Positions 19,618 to 32,094 of a DNA stretch of 32,191 bases are shown in pieces (positions within the stretch are counted from its first letter, which is position 1; each line of letters begins with the position of its first letter). The notes beneath the pieces are model-generated. The model was not told the origin of the DNA. It did not search any database and was given only the letters and a program-made list of their open reading frames with translations. Source of the stretch: Alphaproteobacteria bacterium MarineAlpha9_Bin1 (lineage in GTDB: Bacteria; Pseudomonadota; Alphaproteobacteria; TMED109). The position numbers and the translations under genes are program-made. The stretch covers positions 1 through 32,191 of the forward strand of contig PTKJ01000005.1 of assembly GCA_002937675.1 (NCBI GenBank). Reading direction: 5' to 3'.

Positions 19618-21024
19618 TTGGTTTTTATGAATACAAATAATTTAATAAAATTCGTCATCAATTTTAGCTTTATTTTTTTTGTTAATATCAGTCTTGTCAA
19701 TTCTGCCAGTTATGAGTTTATTAAACAGAAAATAATTGAACTAAGAGAAGGGGACCTACAAAAACGAATAGAAACAGTTCAAATTTTGGGTTCTCTTTCT
19801 TCTAATGCTAATTTTGCAATTGCAGAGATGATAAACATTTTAAAAAATGATGAAAATCATGAATTAAGAATGCAAGTTATTAGAGCCTTAGAAAGAATAG
19901 GAGGTCAGGCAAATCTTACTGTTCCCGCCTTAATAGAAGCGCTTTCTGATAAGGACTGGCAGATAAGGTGGTCTGCGGCAGGAGCTTTAGAATCATTTGG
20001 TAAGAAAGCAGCAATGGCTGTTCCGGAACTAGTCATACTTTTACGAGATGATGAAAAATTTGTGAGAAATGCAGCTCTGAGTACTTTAGGGAAAATGGGG
20101 TCCATATCTGTATTGGCAATGATGAACGAAGTAGAAAGACCTTTATCTTACTCAGAAAATCAATTAGAGATAAAAATTATGTGCATAAGATCTTTGGGTG
20201 CATTAGGAGCTAGAGCCGTAATCGCTGTTCCTTTATTAATAAAACAAGCACAAAGTGATAATCCGGTGATCCGTAGGGATGCTCTCTACGCTTTAAGAAG
20301 AGTAGGAAGGGGTACTACTTTTCCAGGGCAAATAAGATGGTTAGCAGATCCCGATGAATTAGTTTGGCCTACCACTAGTACTGAAAATAATTCTAGCTTA
20401 GATATAGATTTTACAGAGGCTAAGAAACAAGTTATGGGAGTAATTATAAAAGCTCATTTAGATGCAATATCCGATCCAGATATGGAAGTTCGTTATGCTG
20501 CAGTAAAGGGATTAGCTGATTTTGGATTAGAATCTATGCCTGCAAAAGATAGGTTAATAATTTTTATGTATGACGAAGATCCATTAATTAGAAGAGTTGC
20601 TATAGATGTGTTTGCTTCGATGGGGCCTGATGCAGTTGATGTAATTCCTGATCTAGTAAGTGCACTAGGTGACTTTGATGTAAATGTTCAGTGGTCTGCA
20701 ATACAAGCTCTTCGTTTAATAGGGAAAGAATCAGTGCCAGAGTTAATTTATATGCTAGAATATGATGAAGAAATTATTACGCCAAATATATTACGTACAT
20801 TTGCTGAGCTGGGGCCATTAGCTTCTGATGCAACAGAAGTTCTTTTGGCAAAACTAAAACATACTAACCCAGAGTACAGAGCATTAGCAGCTGAAGCTTT
20901 AGGTGAAATAAGGAATCCGTCAAAAGAAGTTATTCGTTCTCTTAACTTATTATTAACAGATCCTAATAAAAATGTAATGCAATCTGCAAGTTGGTCGTTA
21001 AAAGAATTAGAAAAAATTAATTAA
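19618..21024 (+). CDS. Exported HEAT-repeat protein
   Basis: N-terminal hydrophobic signal, then repeated HEAT/PBS-lyase-like units (e.g. ALSDKDWQIRWSAAGALESFGKKAAMAVPELVILLRDDEKFVRNAALSTLGKMG). The first in-frame ATG of the ORF may not be the true start. Confidence 0.82.
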   Translation: MVFMNTNNLIKFVINFSFIFFVNISLVNSASYEFIKQKIIELREGDLQKRIETVQILGSLSSNANFAIAEMINILKNDENHELRMQVIRALERIGGQANLTVPALIEALSDKDWQIRWSAAGALESFGKKAAMAVPELVILLRDDEKFVRNAALSTLGKMGSISVLAMMNEVERPLSYSENQLEIKIMCIRSLGALGARAVIAVPLLIKQAQSDNPVIRRDALYALRRVGRGTTFPGQIRWLADPDELVWPTTSTENNSSLDIDFTEAKKQVMGVIIKAHLDAISDPDMEVRYAAVKGLADFGLESMPAKDRLIIFMYDEDPLIRRVAIDVFASMGPDAVDVIPDLVSALGDFDVNVQWSAIQALRLIGKESVPELIYMLEYDEEIITPNILRTFAELGPLASDATEVLLAKLKHTNPEYRALAAEALGEIRNPSKEVIRSLNLLLTDPNKNVMQSASWSLKELEKIN

Positions 21025-21038
21025 AAAAGGATTATAGC

Positions 21039-21728
21039 TTGGGTTATATTTCAAAAAACATAATAATATTTATGCTATTTTTGTTTATTAATAAAAACTT
21101 ATTATCGCAAGAGATAAATGTTGATCTAGAACTTGTTCTTGCAGTTGACGTTTCTTCTAGTGTAGATGAAAAAGAATACCAATTACAAGTAAGAGGAATT
21201 GCTGCTGCTTTTAGACATCCAGATGTGGTTTCTGCTATCCAGGCAAGTGGGGAAAATGGAATTGCAGTTGCGATGGTTCAGTGGTCAGATAATGAGGAAC
21301 AAGCTCTTGTAGGAGGGTGGCATGTAATCAGAGATAGTGCCGATGCAGCTGAATATGCTAGAATTATTAGACGTTCTCCAAGGATTATTCCTGGAGGTCA
21401 AACATCTATTGCTGGGGCCTTGTCTTTTGCAATTGATGAAATAGAAAATAATAATATAAATAGTTCTAGAAGAGTAATTGATGTTTCAGGAGATGGGAGG
21501 TCTAATAATGGAATACATCCAATGTCTATTAGGGATAATGCCATAGATAATAATATTACCATTAATGGATTGGTAATATTAAATGAAGAACCATTTTTGG
21601 GAGGATATTTTGAGAGAAGCGTGATAGGAGGTCATGGAGCTTTTATGATGGTAGCCGAGGATTATCGAGACTATGCCGCTATGATATTGCAAAAACTTCT
21701 TAGAGAAATAGGACTTCCGGTAAGCTAA
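21039..21728 (+). CDS. DUF1194 family (von Willebrand factor A-like) exported protein
   Basis: VDLELVLAVDVSSSVDEKEYQLQVRGIAAAFRHPDV..VAMVQWS, GGQTSIAGALSFAIDEI, VIDVSGDGRSNNG. MIDAS-like DxSxS, T and D are all present. TTG start, 14 bp after the HEAT-repeat gene. Confidence 0.85.
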   Translation: MGYISKNIIIFMLFLFINKNLLSQEINVDLELVLAVDVSSSVDEKEYQLQVRGIAAAFRHPDVVSAIQASGENGIAVAMVQWSDNEEQALVGGWHVIRDSADAAEYARIIRRSPRIIPGGQTSIAGALSFAIDEIENNNINSSRRVIDVSGDGRSNNGIHPMSIRDNAIDNNITINGLVILNEEPFLGGYFERSVIGGHGAFMMVAEDYRDYAAMILQKLLREIGLPVS

Positions 21729-21773: not shown

Positions 21774-22235
21774 TTAAGGATATACCCCATACTCGAATTT
21801 ACTACCTGCCGCTTTTCTGTCTTTATATTCTTGACGTAAATAGGCAATAATTTTCCAAATATTTTCATCGGATATGGTCCTAGAGAAAGCACCCATTTGT
21901 GTTGGCTGGCCATTTACCTGTAACCCTGAAGCTATAACTGAATAAAGATTTATATTAGAACCCCCGCTTTTTTTATAATAACCTCTTGTCAGAGGTGGAC
22001 CTTTTGCTCCTACTCCTCTCATTCCATGACAATAAGAGCAACGTTGATTAAATTTTTCATAGCCTTCTGCTATGGCTTCAGCATTGCCTTCAAACGGGTT
22101 TTCCACATCATCTTCTCCTCCATAGTCTTGGACTTTACCTGCAGATAATGCAGGTGATAAGTAGAAATTGCTAGTAAAGGTTGTTCCTATTATCACAAAA
22201 AAAGTTATAAAAAATATATTTTTAATTAAACCCAT
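21774..22235 (-). CDS. xoxG: Cytochrome c associated with PQQ methanol dehydrogenase (XoxG/cL-like)
   Basis: Signal peptide, CSYCHG haem motif, MRGVGAKGPPLTRGYYKKSGG..GQPTQMGAFSRTISDENIWKIIAYLR. Located downstream of xoxF and xoxJ. Confidence 0.85.
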   Translation of the reverse strand: MGLIKNIFFITFFVIIGTTFTSNFYLSPALSAGKVQDYGGEDDVENPFEGNAEAIAEGYEKFNQRCSYCHGMRGVGAKGPPLTRGYYKKSGGSNINLYSVIASGLQVNGQPTQMGAFSRTISDENIWKIIAYLRQEYKDRKAAGSKFEYGVYP

Positions 22236-22262
22236 TTTTTATTTCTCCTAAATATATAAATT

Positions 22263-23138
22263 TTAGTCTTTCGCTGTGTATGAGGAACCAACTTTATCAA
22301 AAGGTTTAAAATAAGGAATATTATACTTTTCAACTATCTCCTGCAGAGTTCCATTTTCGATAAGTATTTTTAAATTTTTATTTATCATGTCTTTGAACTC
22401 TTTGTCTTTAGGCAGCACACCAGCAATATTCCATCTCAATTCTGTAGGTGGCTCAAAAGACTTAATTACTCTAAAAGGAGCATCTTTATATTTTCTTCTA
22501 GCTTTTGCAACTTGAGTAGACATAACAAAGGCTATAGAAATTTCCTGAGTAGCTACACCATCAATTTCTGTAGGTTTTCTAGACCACAAATCACGGTCAT
22601 AGCCATTATAAAAAAAATACCCATCTATTGCCGTGGACATTGCTACACCAGGCTTATATTTCCCTTTAATTTCTTCTATCTTAATAAAATCTGGAACATC
22701 TGGATTTGCTATTGGAATGTAGGCTACTCCCATATAGGGTATAGTATATTCAAGATTTTTCTCTTCGATTTCTTCTTCCATGCTATCACTGGTGGTAATT
22801 CCCATATACAAATGGCAACGTCCTTTGCTTATTGAATGACGAAGAGCTTTTCCTAAACCCCCTCGCATTTTTTGTTCTGCCCAGTAAATATCTAAATACA
22901 AATCTTCATTAGCAGCAATTCTTTCGATAATTTCTATATCAAATCCTCTTGGGTAATTAGCGGAAGAAGTATAAGGCCATGCGTACGGACCTGCACATAA
23001 AATTAACTTGTGTGTTTCCTGTATTTTATCCAATAGTTCTCCAGCGAAAACCCTTTTATAATCCATTGAAAATAATTGTAGTATAAACGCAGTTGCTATA
23101 ACAAAAAGACTAAAAACTCTCATCTTCAATTGCTCCAC
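22263..23138 (-). CDS. xoxJ: XoxJ-like quinoprotein dehydrogenase-associated periplasmic binding protein
   Basis: Periplasmic SBP fold (LILCAGPYAWPYTSSANYPRGFDIEIIERIAANEDLYLDIYWAEQKMRGGLGKALRHSISKGRCHLYMGI) between xoxF and xoxG. Confidence 0.85.
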   Translation of the reverse strand: MEQLKMRVFSLFVIATAFILQLFSMDYKRVFAGELLDKIQETHKLILCAGPYAWPYTSSANYPRGFDIEIIERIAANEDLYLDIYWAEQKMRGGLGKALRHSISKGRCHLYMGITTSDSMEEEIEEKNLEYTIPYMGVAYIPIANPDVPDFIKIEEIKGKYKPGVAMSTAIDGYFFYNGYDRDLWSRKPTEIDGVATQEISIAFVMSTQVAKARRKYKDAPFRVIKSFEPPTELRWNIAGVLPKDKEFKDMINKNLKILIENGTLQEIVEKYNIPYFKPFDKVGSSYTAKD

Positions 23139-23197
23139 TTTTAATGAGTTTGATTAATTTGTTTTTACTTCTTAACTTTGCTTTCGTCAAATTAAAA

Positions 23198-23221
23198 GGG
23201 AAGGTGGATTTCCACCTTCCC
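23198..23221 (-). terminator. Strong GC-rich hairpin (terminator or attenuator) immediately downstream of xoxF
   Basis: GGGAAGGTGG-attt-CCACCTTCCC perfect 10-bp stem, followed on the minus strand by TTTTAATTT. Confidence 0.75.
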
Positions 23222-23250
23222 AATTAACAAAAAGTTCTAGCTATATACTT

Positions 23251-24978
23251 TTAGTTTAATCCAAAAGTAAATACGCCACCACCTTTGGTGTGTTTTTTAA
23301 GCCATTCGCCATAACTTAGAGGCCATATTCCACCGCCACCAGCACCTACTACGACAGACACTTGTTGTTGTCCATCAACAGTGTAAGTTGTTGGGTTTCC
23401 GTGTACGCCTGTACCTACGTTGAACTGGAATAGTTCTTCACCGGTATCGTCACGTACTGCATGGAAATAACCTTCAGCGTCACCATAAAACACCAATCCA
23501 CCAGCTGTACATAGTGTACCACCAGTAGCTGGAGTGCTATGTGGACGAATCCACATTAGATCACCATTTGATGCGTTAAAGGCTTTAATAGATCCATTAC
23601 CTGAGTTAAAGGTAATAACTTTAGCACCTAGGTACCATTCACCACGGCGCCATTCCATTTTCTTCGCTTGGAGATCCATGGAGAAGTTATATAATGGAAC
23701 AACAGCTGCGTTTACACGTGGAGAATAACACATTGGATGCCATTCTTTACCACCATCAAGTGATGGATAAATATTTTTAGTTACACGATCGTAAACAACA
23801 TCCATTGCTGGATCACCACCTTCTTCCCAAGCCATAATTGGACGACAATTGTCGCGGAATCCAGGTGTCCAATTGATTCTACCCATTGCAACAACCCAGT
23901 TACAACGTGAGTTTGTACGATCAATTGAGTACAAGTGACCATTACGATCACCATGTAACCAAACTTTCTTACCATCAATATCAGCAAGGATAACTTCGTT
24001 TACACCGTCATAGTCATATGGATCGTTTGGTGTATACTGGAACCAACTTACGATAGCACCATCATTAGGATTTAATACTAAAGTTGAGTTTGAGTATAGA
24101 TTGTCACCTAAACGAACGTGACGATCAAAGTCGGGTCCAGGGTTACCGATTGGCCAATAAAGCAAGTCTAAATCTTTATCGTATGAACCAGTTATCCATC
24201 CAGAACCACCACCGTATTTCCAAGACTCTCCAGCCCAGGTGTCTACGTTTGGCTCACCTTCAGCTGGAATTGTGTATGTATTCCATATAACACTTCCATC
24301 TTCAGCTGATAATTTACGTACCCAACCACGAACACCATATTCAGCACCAGCGGTTCCTTGAATTAGGCCGCCATCAAGTGCCATAGGCATAATAGTTGAA
24401 GTTTCCGCGTATGTGTAGTCACCTACAGCTACGTCGAATAGAACTTCACCACTGTGGTTAGCAAGACGTACCAAGTGTGAATCTAGAGTTGCTAAGTATA
24501 CGCTATCTCCATATGGAGTAGCTCCACGGTTAACAACGTCACAGCAAAGTTCTGGATAAACGTCAGCTGGTAGCTCACGCTCATATTTCCATATAATGTC
24601 GCCTGAAGCTGTGTCCACAGAAATCACACGGTTAAATGATGTGGTGACATAACCTTGTCCTCCAACAACATTCAACTGACTGTCTTGACCTTCAAGGGTA
24701 CCAAATGACAGATACCATTTAGCTACTAGATCTCCCGCATTACCTTGGTTGATTTGAGAAGCTTGATGATAACGAGTTGATTGGTAATCTTTACCATAAT
24801 GCAACCAGTTCATTGGATCCTTGTCTGCATTTAAAAGCATGTCATCTGTTACATAGTGAGGTTGCGCACCGCCACCTCCTCTAAGAACATCAACACCCTG
24901 CGCAAAAGCGCCTGATACCATGCTTAGTGTAGCTGCAAATACCACAGCTACGAAGCCATATTTCAATATCTTTGACAT
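23251..24978 (-). CDS. xoxF: Lanthanide-type PQQ-dependent methanol/alcohol dehydrogenase (XoxF)
   Basis: PQQ beta-propeller motifs, adjacent Cys pair (ELCCDVVNRG), catalytic-Asp region DPYDYDGVNE with a second Asp at +2 (the XoxF Ln-coordination signature). Start reset to ATG 24978 (MSKILKYGFVAVVF signal peptide) with GGGAGG upstream. Confidence 0.93.
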   Translation of the reverse strand: MSKILKYGFVAVVFAATLSMVSGAFAQGVDVLRGGGGAQPHYVTDDMLLNADKDPMNWLHYGKDYQSTRYHQASQINQGNAGDLVAKWYLSFGTLEGQDSQLNVVGGQGYVTTSFNRVISVDTASGDIIWKYERELPADVYPELCCDVVNRGATPYGDSVYLATLDSHLVRLANHSGEVLFDVAVGDYTYAETSTIMPMALDGGLIQGTAGAEYGVRGWVRKLSAEDGSVIWNTYTIPAEGEPNVDTWAGESWKYGGGSGWITGSYDKDLDLLYWPIGNPGPDFDRHVRLGDNLYSNSTLVLNPNDGAIVSWFQYTPNDPYDYDGVNEVILADIDGKKVWLHGDRNGHLYSIDRTNSRCNWVVAMGRINWTPGFRDNCRPIMAWEEGGDPAMDVVYDRVTKNIYPSLDGGKEWHPMCYSPRVNAAVVPLYNFSMDLQAKKMEWRRGEWYLGAKVITFNSGNGSIKAFNASNGDLMWIRPHSTPATGGTLCTAGGLVFYGDAEGYFHAVRDDTGEELFQFNVGTGVHGNPTTYTVDGQQQVSVVVGAGGGGIWPLSYGEWLKKHTKGGGVFTFGLN

Positions 24979-25024
24979 ATGGGCATTCCTCCCGTTTTTA
25001 ATTTTTACATAACTTAAAATAAAG

Positions 25025-25078
25025 CTAAGTGTAAAAATAACATTAATGTTATATCGTTCAAGGATGAACGACACTTAG
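25025..25078 (-). promoter_or_regulatory. Nested inverted-repeat element in the xoxF leader (possible three-way-junction RNA or multi-operator site)
   Basis: Outer arms CTAAGTGT (25025-25032) / ACACTTAG (25071-25078) enclose the 14-bp palindrome TAACATTAATGTTA (25038-25051) and the hairpin CGTTCA-AGGA-TGAACG (25055-25070). Confidence 0.55.
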
Positions 25079-25094
25079 TATTGGTTATAAGAAA

Positions 25095-25126
25095 AACCTA
25101 TTTTAAAAATTAGTTCAACCTATTTT
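25095..25126 (-). repeat. Direct repeat AACCTATTTT x2, 22-bp period, upstream of xoxF
   Basis: Identical AACCTATTTT at 25095-25104 and 25117-25126 (minus strand AAAATAGGTT), two helical turns apart. Confidence 0.5.
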
Positions 25127-25208
25127 TTGTAAAAGAACTTCTTTTTTTTTCCTTACTGTGGATAACTTTTAAAAACTACTATATATAGTATGGTGCATTT
25201 TTTAAATA

Positions 25209-27413
25209 CTATACATTTAACGAATTTTTAAACACAAGTGGGGGGCATTTTTTATTGTCATAATAGTCTAGTTCGCAATCAAGGCATTGAAAACACTCAT
25301 TCATATTTATTTTTCCTTTGGTATCTATAGCCTGGACAGGACAAGATTTTTCACATAAATGGCAGGGATTTCCACATTCTGGTCTCCTGGGAATCATATT
25401 GAATATATGGAAGCGTCCTAGAAAAGCTAAGGCAGCACCTAGAGGACACATAAAACGACAGAAAAAACGCTCGGAAAAAATTCCGATAAACACAAGTATT
25501 GAAGCATATAAAACGTAAGGTAGGCTTCTATTAAAATATGAAGTAATGGCTGTTTTAAAAGGCTCTATTTCAATTAAACCGTAAGAATAACTACTTCCTA
25601 AAATTGTTGTGCAAGCTATTGCCATAAGAATAATGTATTTTATCACCCATAGTCTTTCATTTAGCCAGTATGGAATATCAATAGTTGGTAATTTAATGAT
25701 TTTTCCTAATTTAAAACACAATTCTTGAAGCACACCAAATGGACATAGCCACCCACAATATACACCTCTTCCTAATAAAATTAGGGAAACTAGTGTATAG
25801 ATAAAAATTATGACCATTAATGGCTCAAATAAAAATTGTGTAAATCCTTTTCCTAAAACTAATGCTTGTGCATAAGATATGATATTAACTATGCTTAGTT
25901 GGGACTGGGCAATCCAGCCTATCCAAGTTAATGTAATAGTCAAAAAACCTAATCTTATATAACTATGGATTTTTCTATTAGAAGAAAGTTTTTTTTGAAA
26001 TCCTAGAATTAAAGTTAATATAATAAGGAGAAAACATAAAAATATTATGGAATAGTCCTGATTTGCCCATTCCGATTGCCATCCATTTAATTTACTTTCT
26101 CTAACAAGTCCCAAAAAAGCAGTTTCAATTTGTCTCAATCCAGCATCTTCTAATGCTACAGGGTCTCCTGTTATTAATTCTTTAGGTAAAACATAATTTA
26201 GAGAAAAAATTCCACTAGCAAAGCTTTCATTAACGGAAAATTCTAACGTCCATTTTTCTAGAGGATTAAATCCCCATTCCTTTGGAATACGCAACAAACC
26301 TATCGATGAAACATTAGGTTTATTTGCTATTCTGAGAGCAGTAGACTGTAATGTTTCATTTTGACTAAATTTAAATACCTTATCTTTTTGAATTAATTGA
26401 ATACGACTGTATTGATTTTTTTTCCATGACCATAAACCTGATCCCATTACGACTAATAAATTGTCGCCAGTTGCTATCTGCGAAACATGATAAGAATACC
26501 ATTTGTCGCCAAAAATATTTCTTCCTACAGATGCTGGATTAGCTAATCCTGCATAAATATTTATAAATTTTTTATCGGGGTCTTTTAAATAATCTTCGTT
26601 TTCCGGGTTTAACTTTTTTCTAATTTCTTTTTTAGTAAAGGTTTTGCCTACTACCCCTCCCCAATTTACTAATGCAGGCCAGTCACGTTCTTTATAGTTA
26701 TCGACATCAAGATAAAATGGTCCTTCATTAGAGGCTAAACCAGTTTGGCGTAAAACTTTTTTTGCAGCGGTAATAATACCATTAGTTGTAAGAGTTGCAC
26801 TAATAGTTGCTCCCGTTACTCCATCATAACCTCTTCCACCGCCAGTACCTGAGTTTAAATTTACTCTTCTATTAATATTAGTACCTACGAATGTTTCGTG
26901 AAGAGCTTCTAGTAATGTTTGAGGTACACAAGTTGGACAAATCATGGGTTCATGAAGTTCTAATATAACGGATCCTGCTAATCTTCCATCTGGCTTTAAT
27001 CCAACAATAATATCAAAATGATCTCCTGAATATCCTTTAGCCTTTGTCGTTTCATAAGTTGAAAATAAGAAACCAATTTCCTTTTGGGTTCCTTTCGTTT
27101 GAAGAGCTGTAATTTTTTCTGCCGTTTCAGCTTCAGTCGGCTCTCGAGCGTAAACTTGTAAAAATTCAATTCTCCATTTGGCAAGTAGTTTTTCATCTAT
27201 AGTTGTTTTTTCTGCAGCAGTACCTAATACTGGAATGTATGGAGGATTTCCTTGAGGGGATCCCAGAGCTTCTGCTTGCGGAAAAATTTTAGCAACAATT
27301 CCAGGGTTTATTCTACTTTGAAGAGGATCGTTCATATCAGCATATGTAACTTTTATTAAAAATATTAAAGATAAAAGAAAAACCCCAAATATTTTTAATA
27401 ACAACTGTTTCAT
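25209..27413 (-). CDS. NosR/NirI-like membrane flavoprotein-polyferredoxin (FMN-binding domain + TM + [4Fe-4S])
   Basis: Flavinylation-type motif YDGVTGATISAT, GVYCGWLCPFG and FFCRFMCPLG (Cx3CP), ferredoxin-like CGNPCHLCEKSCPVQAI and CFQCLDCELDYYDNKKCPP. Confidence 0.88.
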   Translation of the reverse strand: MKQLLLKIFGVFLLSLIFLIKVTYADMNDPLQSRINPGIVAKIFPQAEALGSPQGNPPYIPVLGTAAEKTTIDEKLLAKWRIEFLQVYAREPTEAETAEKITALQTKGTQKEIGFLFSTYETTKAKGYSGDHFDIIVGLKPDGRLAGSVILELHEPMICPTCVPQTLLEALHETFVGTNINRRVNLNSGTGGGRGYDGVTGATISATLTTNGIITAAKKVLRQTGLASNEGPFYLDVDNYKERDWPALVNWGGVVGKTFTKKEIRKKLNPENEDYLKDPDKKFINIYAGLANPASVGRNIFGDKWYSYHVSQIATGDNLLVVMGSGLWSWKKNQYSRIQLIQKDKVFKFSQNETLQSTALRIANKPNVSSIGLLRIPKEWGFNPLEKWTLEFSVNESFASGIFSLNYVLPKELITGDPVALEDAGLRQIETAFLGLVRESKLNGWQSEWANQDYSIIFLCFLLIILTLILGFQKKLSSNRKIHSYIRLGFLTITLTWIGWIAQSQLSIVNIISYAQALVLGKGFTQFLFEPLMVIIFIYTLVSLILLGRGVYCGWLCPFGVLQELCFKLGKIIKLPTIDIPYWLNERLWVIKYIILMAIACTTILGSSYSYGLIEIEPFKTAITSYFNRSLPYVLYASILVFIGIFSERFFCRFMCPLGAALAFLGRFHIFNMIPRRPECGNPCHLCEKSCPVQAIDTKGKINMNECFQCLDCELDYYDNKKCPPLVFKNSLNV

Positions 27414-29446
27414 ATTAAGCTTTTTTCAGAAATAAAGGCATCTCTTATTGAATTCTTTTGTTTTTTATTATTACATTTAATATTTTTATCATTATAAACT
27501 ATCTGACAAGATAAACATTGGATGCATTCTTTTTTATTTATAGAACCATTCTTTGCAATAGCTTTAGTAGGACATTTAGGTAAACATGCATTACATGATT
27601 CGGATCCGCAGGATTTTACTGTGGTTAACCAATTAATAACTTGAAATTGGCTTGCTAATCCTAATGCAGCACCAGTTGGACAAAGATATCTACAAAAACC
27701 TCGTTCAACAAAAACAACAAATGATAGTATTGCAAGTGACCATAAAATAAAAATAATGGATCTATCAAATTTATATTCTATGACTGTTTTAAAAGGTTCA
27801 AATTCAAAAAATATGTTATTCCCTGTTGTATAAATAGCACTCAAAATAATGGAACCTAATATTACATATTTTAAGTATATTAATTTACTATGGACATAGT
27901 TAGGTATTTCAAAACTCTTAAATTTTAAGGCCTTAGAAATTTTATGTATTAAGTCCTGAATTGTTCCAAATGGACACAACCACCCGCAAAAAATACCTCT
28001 TCCCCAAATGGGAGTTGTAATTATTATAAAAGTTCCTAAAATTATATATATAGGTTCAAATAATATGTTATCCCACATACCGTTATCCAGTTTAAAAGTA
28101 TTATACGATTGATAAATTTTTTGCGTTCCTATTTGCAGGCTTTGAAATACACCGAACCAAAGGAATATAATTCCGGTAAGGAAAATTTTAATATATGTTA
28201 TTTTTTTTCTATATTGAGTAAGTTTTCTAGCAAATAAAGTAATTGTTAGAATTCCTAGTAAAAGCAAACTAGTAAAAAATATAGCGTATTTTTGATGTAT
28301 CCATTCTCTCCACCAATCAGGTCCCCATGCATCTATAAAGCCACTCTTATTAGGCATAATTATATTTGTGAGTGTTTTAGCATTAATATTATCAGTTTTG
28401 TTTATTATTTTATTTGTATAAAGGACGTAAGCTGTAACAGCATATGCTTCGTCATTAGTGAGAGATTGTGGTTCAAAGTATGGCATTGCTCTTCGAATGT
28501 AATCAAATAAAGTTGTGGCATAAGGCCAAAAAGACCCAACAGTTCTTACAGGAATTTCTGTATTTAAAGTGCCTAATCCACCAGATAGAGATTCAAAAGC
28601 TATAATTTTTACTGCATTTGATGTTCCTCTAAAGCTCTCGATCTCGCTTGAAAGTACTTCTGCTTTTCCCTGTGTTCCATGACAAGATAGGCACCGTTCT
28701 TGATATACTTTTTCTCCTATTTCAGCTGTGCCATTTCCTTCAGGTAGGTTCTTACTTGTTGGGCTTATTGAAATGTCTTCTGCAATAATTTTTTTCTCTA
28801 TATAGTCCTTACTTAAACTATTATTATACCAATTTATTTTTTCATTTTGTTTGTTTAATAATTTGGATAGTTTAAAAAATAATGAAGAAGTTTTATGATT
28901 TGAAGAATTAATAATAGTATCTTTTTCTGTATTCCAATTAGCAAGGAAAGTATCTTTGGAAGCGGAATTAATATTTAATAAAGATACTTTATCTAATTTT
29001 TCATCAAAATTTAATATATTATTTTTATAAAGTAAGAAGGCTGTTAAAGCATATGTTTCATTACTGGTTAATGTTTGTGGAGTGTTGTAAGGCATAGTCT
29101 TTCTAATATAATCATATAAAGTTTTAGGATAAGGCCAATCTAAGTTAATTGGTACAGAATTAATATTATCCTTTTCTATTATTTTTGTTTGATTAAAAAA
29201 ATCTTTCTCTGAATGGCATGACACACATTTATTTATAAAAATTTTTTCACCTACTTCAGCGTTGCCTGCGCCATCAGGTAAGTTTGACCCCACAGCATCT
29301 ATAGTAATATCTAATTTTGAAATTATATTCTGGCCAATATTTTTACCAAAATTAAAATCTACATGTTCTTCTGCTTGTACTGCTGATATAAAAAATAAGT
29401 TAGTAAAAATTATTAAAAAAGTTAGGTATTTTTCAAACATATTCAT
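27410..29446 (-). CDS. Fusion: tandem SoxD-like cytochrome c domains + NosR-type membrane polyferredoxin
   Basis: Two similar haem domains (NLPDGAGNAEVGEKIFINKCVSCHS..WPYPKTLYDYIRKTMPY and NLPEGNGTAEIGEKVYQERCLSCHG..WPYATTLFDYIRRAMPY), then TMs, RGIFCGWLCPFG, GFCRYLCPTG, CGSESCNACLPKCPTKAI, CIQCLSC. ATGA overlap with the downstream NosR-like gene. Confidence 0.85.
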   Translation of the reverse strand: MNMFEKYLTFLIIFTNLFFISAVQAEEHVDFNFGKNIGQNIISKLDITIDAVGSNLPDGAGNAEVGEKIFINKCVSCHSEKDFFNQTKIIEKDNINSVPINLDWPYPKTLYDYIRKTMPYNTPQTLTSNETYALTAFLLYKNNILNFDEKLDKVSLLNINSASKDTFLANWNTEKDTIINSSNHKTSSLFFKLSKLLNKQNEKINWYNNSLSKDYIEKKIIAEDISISPTSKNLPEGNGTAEIGEKVYQERCLSCHGTQGKAEVLSSEIESFRGTSNAVKIIAFESLSGGLGTLNTEIPVRTVGSFWPYATTLFDYIRRAMPYFEPQSLTNDEAYAVTAYVLYTNKIINKTDNINAKTLTNIIMPNKSGFIDAWGPDWWREWIHQKYAIFFTSLLLLGILTITLFARKLTQYRKKITYIKIFLTGIIFLWFGVFQSLQIGTQKIYQSYNTFKLDNGMWDNILFEPIYIILGTFIIITTPIWGRGIFCGWLCPFGTIQDLIHKISKALKFKSFEIPNYVHSKLIYLKYVILGSIILSAIYTTGNNIFFEFEPFKTVIEYKFDRSIIFILWSLAILSFVVFVERGFCRYLCPTGAALGLASQFQVINWLTTVKSCGSESCNACLPKCPTKAIAKNGSINKKECIQCLSCQIVYNDKNIKCNNKKQKNSIRDAFISEKSLI

Positions 29447-29496
29447 TTAATATTCTATCTTTTGGAGTTATCCTTCAAGTCTCTATGAAATTATTA

Positions 29497-30819
29497 TTAT
29501 TTCTCAGACCAAGTAGAACTTTGAGCAACATCATCATACTCATTTAATATTTTGCCTTTAGCAGTTATTCTCCAAATCTGTATAGAATTGTTATGATATA
29601 AATGTCCTAAACCATATTTTACAGACCAAATAGACCTTTGAGGTTGTGTATTACTCTTACTATCTGTCGCTCTACTTTGTAGTGAGCATTCTTCCCCATT
29701 CCACATCCAGTTATAGCGAAATCTGACCGGAGATAAAGGCTGGTTACTTCCCTCTATTTTTGCAATATTCCAAGTTTTGCCTTTATCGGTAGAAACCTCC
29801 ACTTTTTTAATATTTCCAAGACCTGACCATGCAAGACCCGTAATATGAACAGGTCCTTTCTTTAGGGGAACTGGACCGGCTGTTGGATGAGTAATTACTG
29901 ATTTTACTTCCATCGGAAAGGTAAATTGCAATGTTTTTCCGTTCGTTAGTAAGTCACTATATTTAGAAGTTTCATCTTTAGTATATGTAGGTTTTTTTGT
30001 TACCTTTATTCTTCTTAGCCACTTAATACTTATGTTTCCTTCCCACCCAGGAACAACTAGTCTCATAGGGTATCCTTGCTCAGGTCTTATGCGTTCACCA
30101 TTCTGGTATAATGCTATTAGCGTATCATCTAGTGCTTTTTCCAAAGGTATACTTCGACTCATAGCAGAAGCGTCGGATCCCTCAGCAAGTATCCATTTTG
30201 CCTCTTTCTTTATACCTACTTCGTTTAAAATTATTTTTAGAGGAATACCCGTCCATTCAGAGGTTGACATAAGTCCATGAATTGTTCCGCAGGTTCTATC
30301 TATAGCTATAGGAAAAGCGTTAGAATTATAAAAACTATTTCCAGCACATTCTATAAAATAAGTTTTAGTTTTCATTGGATATTTTAAAAGATCTTCCGTT
30401 TTAAATACTAATGGTCTTTCAACAAGTCCATGAATGAGTAATTCGTGTTGTAACGGGTCTATAGCTGGAATTCCATTATGACTTCTTTCAAAATGCAACC
30501 CATTGGGAGTTATGATTCCTTCAAGCTTTTCTAAGGGAGTCATAGACGCTCCTGTCCCTGGTGCATATTCTTTATATGGCTGAAATATTTTTCGTTTTGT
30601 GTTTACTTCCTGTTGTGCAGGGACCCCGTATTCACTGAAAGTTTTACCAGGAGTAGTCATCCAGGAAGGAGACCCCTCTTTTATAGATTCTGCATTTATA
30701 GAAGCTGGTATAAGACTAGCTGCGGAAGAGAATAATAAAGTTCTCCTGGAGATTTCTATTTTGTTTTTAAAAAAAAAATTACTCTGCTGCTTTTTCATCT
30801 TTTTCATGAAGCTTTCCAT
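29497..30819 (-). CDS. soxC: SoxC-like molybdopterin sulfite dehydrogenase subunit (Tat-exported)
   Basis: Twin-arginine SRRTLLFSSAASL, Mo-cofactor Cys in YFIECAGNS, WTGIPLKIIL, EGSDASAMSRSIPLEKALDDTLIALYQNGERIRPEQGYPMRLVVPGWEGNISIKWLRRI, C-terminal dimerisation domain. Exact start uncertain (30819, 30807 or 30798). Confidence 0.9.
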   Translation of the reverse strand: MESFMKKMKKQQSNFFFKNKIEISRRTLLFSSAASLIPASINAESIKEGSPSWMTTPGKTFSEYGVPAQQEVNTKRKIFQPYKEYAPGTGASMTPLEKLEGIITPNGLHFERSHNGIPAIDPLQHELLIHGLVERPLVFKTEDLLKYPMKTKTYFIECAGNSFYNSNAFPIAIDRTCGTIHGLMSTSEWTGIPLKIILNEVGIKKEAKWILAEGSDASAMSRSIPLEKALDDTLIALYQNGERIRPEQGYPMRLVVPGWEGNISIKWLRRIKVTKKPTYTKDETSKYSDLLTNGKTLQFTFPMEVKSVITHPTAGPVPLKKGPVHITGLAWSGLGNIKKVEVSTDKGKTWNIAKIEGSNQPLSPVRFRYNWMWNGEECSLQSRATDSKSNTQPQRSIWSVKYGLGHLYHNNSIQIWRITAKGKILNEYDDVAQSSTWSEK

Positions 30820-31267
30820 ATATTACATATCGGAGAATGGCAACAACTTCTTCTACCGATCTGCATGTAGCAAGTGATGCCTGATCTATCTCCTTTAGAG
30901 CATGGTCGAGATTGTAGTCGTGCAAAGTAATTACGGCTTTTCCTTGTGCGGCGGCTAACCCAACATCAAATGCAGCATTCCATTGTTTATATTGATCTCC
31001 AAACTTTACAATTAAAATGTCTGTTTCCTTTAATAATATGCTATTTCTAATAGAATTTATAGCCGCACCTTTTCTGTCATGCCAAAACTTATTTGATTCA
31101 TTTCCTAAAATCGTTACACCACAATCATCTGAATTTGAATGGTTTGTATTTGGTGAATTTATAATTACAGGCAGTTCATCGTGTTTACATAATTTTTTTA
31201 TTTCTTCTCTCCAGTTAGTATGAATTTCTCCCGACAGATAGATTTTCCATATCCTATCTTTAGACAT
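30779..31267 (-). CDS. ytoQ: YtoQ family protein
   Basis: WKIYLSGEIHTNWREEI..ADILIVKFGDQYKQWNAAFDVGLAAAQGKAVITLHDYNLDHALKEIDQASLATCRSVEEVVAILRYVI. Start reset to ATG 31267 (MSKDRIWK). Confidence 0.85.
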   Translation of the reverse strand: MSKDRIWKIYLSGEIHTNWREEIKKLCKHDELPVIINSPNTNHSNSDDCGVTILGNESNKFWHDRKGAAINSIRNSILLKETDILIVKFGDQYKQWNAAFDVGLAAAQGKAVITLHDYNLDHALKEIDQASLATCRSVEEVVAILRYVIYGKLHEKDEKAAE

Positions 31268-31287
31268 ATTTTTCTCCTTATTATAAA

Positions 31288-32094
31288 TTAATTTAAATGA
31301 CTCCCAAATTTTGCATAAAGTTTTCTCATACCTCCTAGCCACCTTGGGTAATTGCTGGTTTTAAGTTTTATATATTCTCCTACTTGAGGGTGGGGAAGTA
31401 TTAAAAATTCTCCCTTAGAGACTGCATCCAAAGTGATCGAAGCGACCTCATTTGCTTCTAACATCCCATCTATTCCTGCTACATTTCCATCTTTCATGTT
31501 GGCCGTCATAGCAGTCTTAACTCCTTGAGGACATAAACATGATATACGCACTGCATTTCCATTATCATCATCTTTTCCATACACTATGGATAAATATTCT
31601 GCAAAACCAACGGCCGCATGTTTGGTAAGAGAATAAGAAGCAGAGTTGATTTCAGAAAGTAATCCTGCCGCAGAGGCAGTGGTTACAAAACGACAATCTT
31701 TTCTTTTACGCATTTTAGGAATTACAGTTTTTGCTGCCCATACGTGATGCCATGTATTGACATTCATTGACAAATCCCAATCTGCATCACTAGTAGAAGA
31801 TAGGTCACCTAAGCATGCTACACCAGCATTCGCAAAAAAGGCGTCAATACCTCCAAGATTGTCCTCTGTCTCGGAGACAAATTTTACTATTTCACTTTCT
31901 TTTCCAACATCACAATTATTTGTTAGGAAGCCATGCTCATTTGAAACGCTATTTAAATCATTTTCGTTGATATCACATACGGATATTTTTGCTCCTCTGG
32001 TTTGGGCTTCTAATGCAATAGCTTTTCCAATTCCTCTGCTTCCTCCCGTAATAGCAACAACTTTATTTTCCCAGTTGAAAGAATTGGTTTCCAT
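31288..32094 (-). CDS. Short-chain dehydrogenase/reductase
   Basis: VAITGGSRGIGKAIALEA, FFANAGVACLG, catalytic Ser/YxxxK in TTASAAGLLSEINSASYSLTKHAAVGFAE. Confidence 0.9.
   Translation of the reverse strand: METNSFNWENKVVAITGGSRGIGKAIALEAQTRGAKISVCDINENDLNSVSNEHGFLTNNCDVGKESEIVKFVSETEDNLGGIDAFFANAGVACLGDLSSTSDADWDLSMNVNTWHHVWAAKTVIPKMRKRKDCRFVTTASAAGLLSEINSASYSLTKHAAVGFAEYLSIVYGKDDDNGNAVRISCLCPQGVKTAMTANMKDGNVAGIDGMLEANEVASITLDAVSKGEFLILPHPQVGEYIKLKTSNYPRWLGGMRKLYAKFGSHLN

Follow-up and report, generated by a model that had tools for sequence, protein, structure and literature searches.

The window analysed here is the whole 32,191-nt contig PTKJ01000005.1 (C61) of Alphaproteobacteria bacterium MarineAlpha9_Bin1 (G000), a 1.42 Mb genome of the order TMED109 that is 83% complete in 115 contigs. 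It carries a minus-strand locus in which the genes for a SoxC-type molybdenum subunit, a SoxD-like cytochrome c fused to a NosR-like membrane ferredoxin (SoxD-Fd) and a NosR-like flavo-ferredoxin protein are followed by those for a lanthanide-type pyrroloquinoline quinone (PQQ) dehydrogenase (the quinoprotein), an XoxJ/MoxJ-like periplasmic binding protein (J) and an XoxG-like cytochrome c (G). The reading to which about even weight is given here is that the locus encodes a SoxCD-type enzyme which the fused ferredoxin and the NosR-like flavoprotein tie to the membrane, and that this enzyme is co-inherited with the quinoprotein. A first-pass annotation had described a minus-strand run from a short-chain dehydrogenase/reductase (SDR, 32094) down to xoxG (21774), and eight open reading frames (ORFs), i.e., SDR, YtoQ, SoxC, SoxD-Fd, NosR-like, quinoprotein, J and G, were confirmed at these coordinates.

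TMED109 is an uncultured marine order that includes plankton and, as the isolate names of the genus g8 metagenome-assembled genomes (MAGs) suggest, sponge-derived members. The sample used here comprises 28 TMED109 genomes from one family and 8 genera, many of them incomplete MAGs.

SoxC and the SoxD–ferredoxin fusion

The product of the SoxC gene (29497–30819) matches TIGR04555 at 519 bits (cut-off 420), and its best relative in the PDB is 2xts_A. Its molybdenum-cysteine motif ECAGNSF aligns with ECAANGG of 2xts, whereas sulfite oxidase has QCAGNRR, and the arginine that follows this cysteine in sulfite oxidase is missing from the window protein. In addition, STSEWTG aligns with STARWGG of 2xts, so that the pocket is predicted to be of the SoxC type rather than the sulfite oxidase type. 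A SoxD partner is encoded next to SoxC, 50 nt downstream, where residues 211–371 of the SoxD-Fd fusion (27410–29446), spanning its second heme domain, match 2xts_B at 1.5e-24. SoxC and this heme domain thus have their best PDB relatives in the two chains of one complex, the SoxCD sulfane dehydrogenase of Paracoccus (2xts). In contrast to that complex, the heme domain of the window protein continues into a NosR-like membrane ferredoxin within one polypeptide, and the fused proteins of g8 include the NosR-like flavoprotein as well.

The fusion carries CxxCH heme motifs at residues 74 and 252, and its C-terminus (residues 376–660) matches NF046105 at 218 bits, with CGWLCP, CRYLCP and CxxCxxxC motifs and hydrophobic segments. 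The gene for the NosR-like protein (25209–27413) overlaps that of the fusion by 4 nt, and its product matches NF046105 at 499 bits and contains CGWLCP, CRFMCP, CHLCEKSC and the flavinylation-like motif TGATISAT, which is retained in genus g6 and reads GATISATL in g8. The likeness to NosR/NirI extends over ~640 residues of the NosR-like protein and ~280 of the fusion C-terminus and includes the CxxxCP motifs; however, both scores are under the equivalog cut-off of 1000, and no nosZ is found in the locus. The first-pass annotation had grouped the SoxD-polyferredoxin and NosR-like genes into a module, which is borne out by seven g8 (sponge-type) genomes in which the two are a single ORF of ~1160–1290 aa. 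In a class sample of 385 genomes, the SoxD-Fd fusion was found only in the family of the window, and a scan of 84,980 species gave at least nine fusions beyond the window, all from this order among the matches listed. No description of a SoxD–NosR fusion was found in the open-licence literature searched (titles and abstract starts, for SoxC together with NosR or polyferredoxin). The fusion offers a testable case of a membrane-wired Sox enzyme.

Four further NosR-like genes were observed in this 1.4 Mb genome (contigs C34, C43, C83 and C91; L045–L048), none of which has the GATIS form of the motif. The one on C34 adjoins an ApbE-like gene, itself a weak match of 19.8 bits. On a Methylorubrum extorquens plasmid (L263:1-1500), a NosR-like 4Fe-4S protein with 23% identity to the window protein lies a few genes from a dehydrogenase of the PedH/ExaF clade; NosR-like proteins encoded on plasmids gave generic NosR/NirI matches. 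Contig C49 of genome G254 holds a NosR-like gene that was considered as an orthologue and set aside; no quinoprotein gene adjoins it.

The quinoprotein and its transcript layout

The quinoprotein gene (23251–24978) starts at an ATG at 24978, with a longer ORF available from a GTG at 25074, and its product matches TIGR03075 at 490 bits (cut-off 480). It retains the CC disulfide (ELCCDVVNRG) and the lanthanide-type aspartate motif DYDG (PYDYDG), and it is followed by the J gene (22263–23138) and, 27 nt further on, the G gene (21774–22235), an arrangement like that of XoxF, XoxJ and XoxG. J scores 33 bits with TIGR03871, far under the cut-off of 212, and G matches PF13442 and, weakly, the MoxG model TIGR03872; the position of both genes is conserved. 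In the genome of the window, this is the sole PQQ dehydrogenase gene at E ≤ 1e-20.

The first-pass annotation had named the quinoprotein XoxF. Its identity to XoxF5, XoxF2 and PedH is 34–37% (34–35% to XoxF5 or XoxF2), with PedH as its best match in the PDB. One FastTree run on 34 sequences, among them partial PDB sequences taken from HMMER output, joined the window clade to proteins of the sister family f125 with a support of 1.0, and then to paralogues of 43–46% identity (0.996). The window protein fell outside both the XoxF5 and XoxF2 clade (support 0.96) and the clade of XoxF with Methylocella (1.0), and it was likewise excluded from the PedH/ExaF clade (6zcw, Methylorubrum, Ciceribacter and Thioclava; 1.0). 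Since the window quinoprotein forms a separate clade, the name XoxF describes a resemblance and not a membership, and the first-pass identification does not hold in that respect. Two cysteines, Cys391 and Cys410 (counted from the GTG at 25074), are present in all 12 sequences of the window clade and f125 and in none of the 22 others, while Cys449 and Cys522 (same numbering) occur only in TMED109 members of g1, g2 and g6.

A gap of ~230 nt separates the NosR-like gene from the ATG of the quinoprotein gene, and this leader holds a tandem repeat that the first-pass annotation had not pointed out, AATAGGTT-14 nt-AATAGGTT (25095–25124, minus strand), which is found in the same place in the window and in G013, G008, G014 and G011. 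Elsewhere, AATAGGTT was repeated at one locus only, with a different spacing (3.07 Mb scanned, overlapping loci counted more than once), and the conserved repeat is possibly the site of a regulator. On the other side of the gene, a 112-nt gap before J, absent from the first-pass annotation, contains a strong intrinsic terminator (23221–23198, minus strand) with a 10-pair stem and a T-rich tail, and a similar hairpin is present in five relatives. An Rfam search of the locus gave no match.

Conservation and co-inheritance

The six-gene order SoxC, SoxD-Fd, NosR-like, quinoprotein, J and G is kept, with its strand, in genera g1, g6 and g8. The g6 loci (G008, G013 and G014) share 82% identity with the window in SoxC and 87–92% in the quinoprotein, and the g8 loci share 60% and 75%, respectively; at some g8 loci the ORF calling, which was simple, failed to find a gene or placed it on the wrong strand, so that a few positions there rest on their neighbours or on the separately listed places of SoxC and quinoprotein matches. 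The persistence of this order in three genera at 60–92% SoxC and quinoprotein identity is more than would be expected by chance. A SoxC orthologue was found in 12 of the 28 TMED109 genomes and only ever at this locus. These 12 genomes also have the quinoprotein orthologue, as do G001 and G011, whose contigs stop at the quinoprotein gene; the contig of G012 stops there as well, with SoxC on another contig. Both genes are absent from G009 and G010 of g6, and no intact counterexample, i.e., one of the two genes without the other, was found among the 28 genomes. The link between the two gene sets that had been claimed from the window alone is thus upheld by co-inheritance across TMED109 as well as by gene order.

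The nearest quinoprotein relatives outside TMED109 are in three genomes of f125 (G408, G254 and G410). In G408, the quinoprotein gene is followed by J, G and genes for a DUF1194 and a HEAT-repeat protein, and in G254, J, DUF1194 and HEAT genes were labelled; the G410 contig stops just downstream of the quinoprotein gene and that of G254 stops upstream of it. In G408 and G410, the quinoprotein gene is preceded by genes belonging to a cell-wall cluster and not by SoxC. Separation in close relatives, which the first-pass annotation had considered as a sign against a link, is therefore not seen within TMED109 but is seen in this sister family. Taken with the repeat and terminator of the quinoprotein gene, the f125 block without SoxC points to two separable modules that were joined in TMED109.

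This separability outside TMED109, together with the separate upstream element and terminator of the quinoprotein gene, also favours a rival explanation, in which one block for the oxidation of alcohols or aldehydes and another for sulfite or sulfane detoxification lie next to each other, travel as one genomic island and share neither a pathway nor an electron chain. Against it, order and strand are kept across genera at 60–75% protein identity and between plankton-type genomes of 1.4 Mb and sponge-type genomes of 2.5–3.8 Mb, and presence and absence are shared within g6, where G009 and G010 lack both blocks. Such a mere neighbourhood is considered unlikely.

Sulfur, PQQ and C1 genes elsewhere in the genomes

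Another contig of the same genome (C29) carries soxX, soxY, soxZ and soxA. The products of soxX, soxZ and soxA score over their cut-offs, and SoxY reaches 91 bits against a cut-off of 125. The C-terminal GACS arm of SoxY was seen in the TMED109 genomes read, one copy having an unread base, and SoxY-family matches over the cut-off were found in 25 of the 28 genomes. SoxY neighbourhoods were listed in nine other genomes (G001, G005, G007, G009, G010, G014, G020, G022 and G027): soxA is next to soxY in all nine, and soxX and soxZ were also labelled in seven; in G027 soxZ but no soxX was labelled, and in G022 neither was. SoxB was found in none of the 28 genomes, ten of which are at least 90% complete, a result that is provisional for the incomplete ones. 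The canonical Sox thiosulfate set (SoxXA, SoxYZ, SoxB and SoxCD) is accordingly incomplete in TMED109, which would represent a Sox system without SoxB. In this, and in having SoxC encoded apart from soxXYZA, the window differs from the SoxCD system of Paracoccus. The first-pass annotation had also directed attention to pqq and sox genes outside the window; pqqE (over the cut-off in 24 of the 28 genomes, that of the window included) and soxXYZA were found, but SoxB was not.

Quinoprotein-associated SoxYZ and SoxH-like proteins are known from the ped cluster and from the vicinity of xoxF (PMC11237559, PMC12997753), as TIGR04557 and TIGR04558/9, PP_2677/PP_2678, and SoxYZ-S4 with xoxF. The genome of the window has a similar pair on contig C94, a SoxYZ fusion of 131.6 bits (cut-off 140) and a SoxH-like hydrolase of 216 (cut-off 300), both under their cut-offs. 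In contrast to the described systems, the window locus has SoxC and SoxD instead, and the C94 pair is on another contig. It is a guess that the SoxH-like hydrolase replaces SoxB. Genomes of g8 (loci L073 and L077) have an XoxF5-like gene near a quinoprotein-associated SoxYZ carrier, away from the window-type locus; one such g8 carrier scores 280 bits, over the cut-off.

The first-pass annotation had suggested that C1 and sulfur oxidation are coupled. However, Fae was found in none of the 28 genomes (provisional for the incomplete ones), and only six genomes, all of g8, had a glutathione-formaldehyde dehydrogenase (TIGR02818) over the cut-off. With the genes for the second step missing or confined to g8, a C1 pathway or a simple methanol-to-formaldehyde route is weakly supported. 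Ocean surveys usually take XoxF-like genes as a sign of methanol oxidation; an XoxF-like gene of a distinct clade that is tied to SoxC in bacteria without Fae or SoxB means that counts of xoxF and soxC genes could be misread.

According to three papers (PMC9774590, PMC10301885, PMC6548844) that cite Pyne et al. 2018, ThdT of Advenella kashmirensis, an XoxF homologue, works with SoxBCD on tetrathionate. The window likewise combines an XoxF-type quinoprotein with SoxCD; compared with ThdT–SoxBCD as given in those papers, SoxB was not found in TMED109, and the window locus has a membrane ferredoxin arm. The quinoprotein could, by analogy, be no alcohol dehydrogenase and act on thiosulfate, tetrathionate or a thiol, with the resulting adduct then oxidised by the SoxCD-type enzyme. 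In favour of this are the functional link between Xox and Sox given in those papers, the co-inheritance of the quinoprotein with SoxC in TMED109, the lack of Fae in the order and of an over-cut-off glutathione-formaldehyde dehydrogenase in its pelagic members, and the clade-specific Cys391 and Cys410. However, the Advenella pathway includes SoxB, which TMED109 lacks, and f125 has the same quinoprotein clade, including these two cysteines, without SoxC. A ThdT-like role is considered unlikely. Links between Xox and Sox enzymes have thus already been published, whereas the exact TMED109 arrangement was not found described in the literature searched, so that the first-pass view of an undescribed system stands for the arrangement but not for the association, of which ThdT/SoxBCD (known from the same citing papers) and the quinoprotein-associated SoxYZ/SoxH are published cases. 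This recurring association gains an independent example.

Proposed electron flow

In the favoured reading, that of a membrane-tied SoxCD-type enzyme co-inherited with the quinoprotein, the first module would oxidise sulfane- or sulfite-level sulfur at SoxC. The sulfur would probably be borne on the swinging arm of SoxYZ, encoded elsewhere in the genome, and the electrons would pass from SoxC to the SoxD-like heme domain. Since this domain is fused to a NosR-type ferredoxin and paired with a NosR-like flavoprotein, the enzyme is proposed to be membrane-tied and able to exchange electrons with the quinone pool. In the second module, the lanthanide-type PQQ dehydrogenase of its own clade would oxidise an alcohol, an aldehyde or a substrate of the thiol type, with the electrons passing to the XoxG-like cytochrome. 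The locus would then comprise two periplasmic electron-input modules inherited together in TMED109, with the substrates, the direction of electron flow and the carrier role of SoxYZ inferred; what the sequences show directly is the identity of the genes, their motifs and order, the fusion and the co-inheritance. This reading is favoured by the SoxC score and the 2xts matches, by the restriction of SoxC to this conserved locus and its shared occurrence with the quinoprotein, by the single-ORF form in g8, by soxXYZA with its GACS arm in genomes that have no SoxB, by pqqE and the sole PQQ dehydrogenase in the genome of the window, and by the lanthanide motif and CC disulfide.

Several points weigh against this reading. 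Without SoxB, a canonical Sox cycle of the known form is not possible. If the potentials are as in NosR, electron flow from a c-type heme to the low-potential iron–sulfur (Fe–S) and flavin mononucleotide centres would be uphill. In three g6 orthologues of SoxD-Fd (L035, L036 and L037), the first heme motif of the window protein is missing, and so are the cysteines of its C-terminal CxxCxxxC motif; the loss of these cluster cysteines speaks against a strict need for every cluster. The upstream repeat and terminator of the quinoprotein gene make its regulation apart from the SoxC module probable and suggest that the two are controlled separately, and, given the f125 block without SoxC, a shared pathway for the two modules does not necessarily follow. 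It is distinctly unlikely that the quinoprotein and the NosR-wired SoxCD form one SoxB-less sulfur-oxidising respiratory chain, with sulfur or thiols, and not methanol, as the substrate of the quinoprotein.

The direction of flow could also be reversed, with quinol electrons reaching the heme domain and SoxC by way of flavin and Fe–S centres; SoxC would then serve as a reductase or keep a sulfur carrier or the quinoprotein disulfide active. NosR itself moves electrons toward a periplasmic reductase, and the flavinylation-like motif of the NosR-like protein and the weakly matching ApbE-like gene elsewhere in the genome agree with such an arm. However, SoxC matches a sulfane/sulfite dehydrogenase equivalog, i.e., an oxidising enzyme, and soxXYZA suggests an oxidative Sox route; this reversal, including the role it assigns to SoxC, is held to be very unlikely.

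Neighbouring genes

Two optional parts precede SoxC on the minus strand. The SDR (31288–32094; PF00106) has orthologues in the same position with 69–71% identity in g6 and 43–44% in some g8 genomes. The YtoQ family protein (30779–31342; TIGR03646, 195 bits against a cut-off of 155), whose true start is probably an ATG near 31267, is retained in g6, and none was seen at the g8 loci examined. Convergent with the locus, on the plus strand, are genes for a DUF1194 von Willebrand A protein (21039–21728; PF06707) and a HEAT-repeat protein (19618–21024; PF13646), which are kept with the quinoprotein block in g2, g6 and g8 and in f125. These two neighbours are possibly maturation factors.

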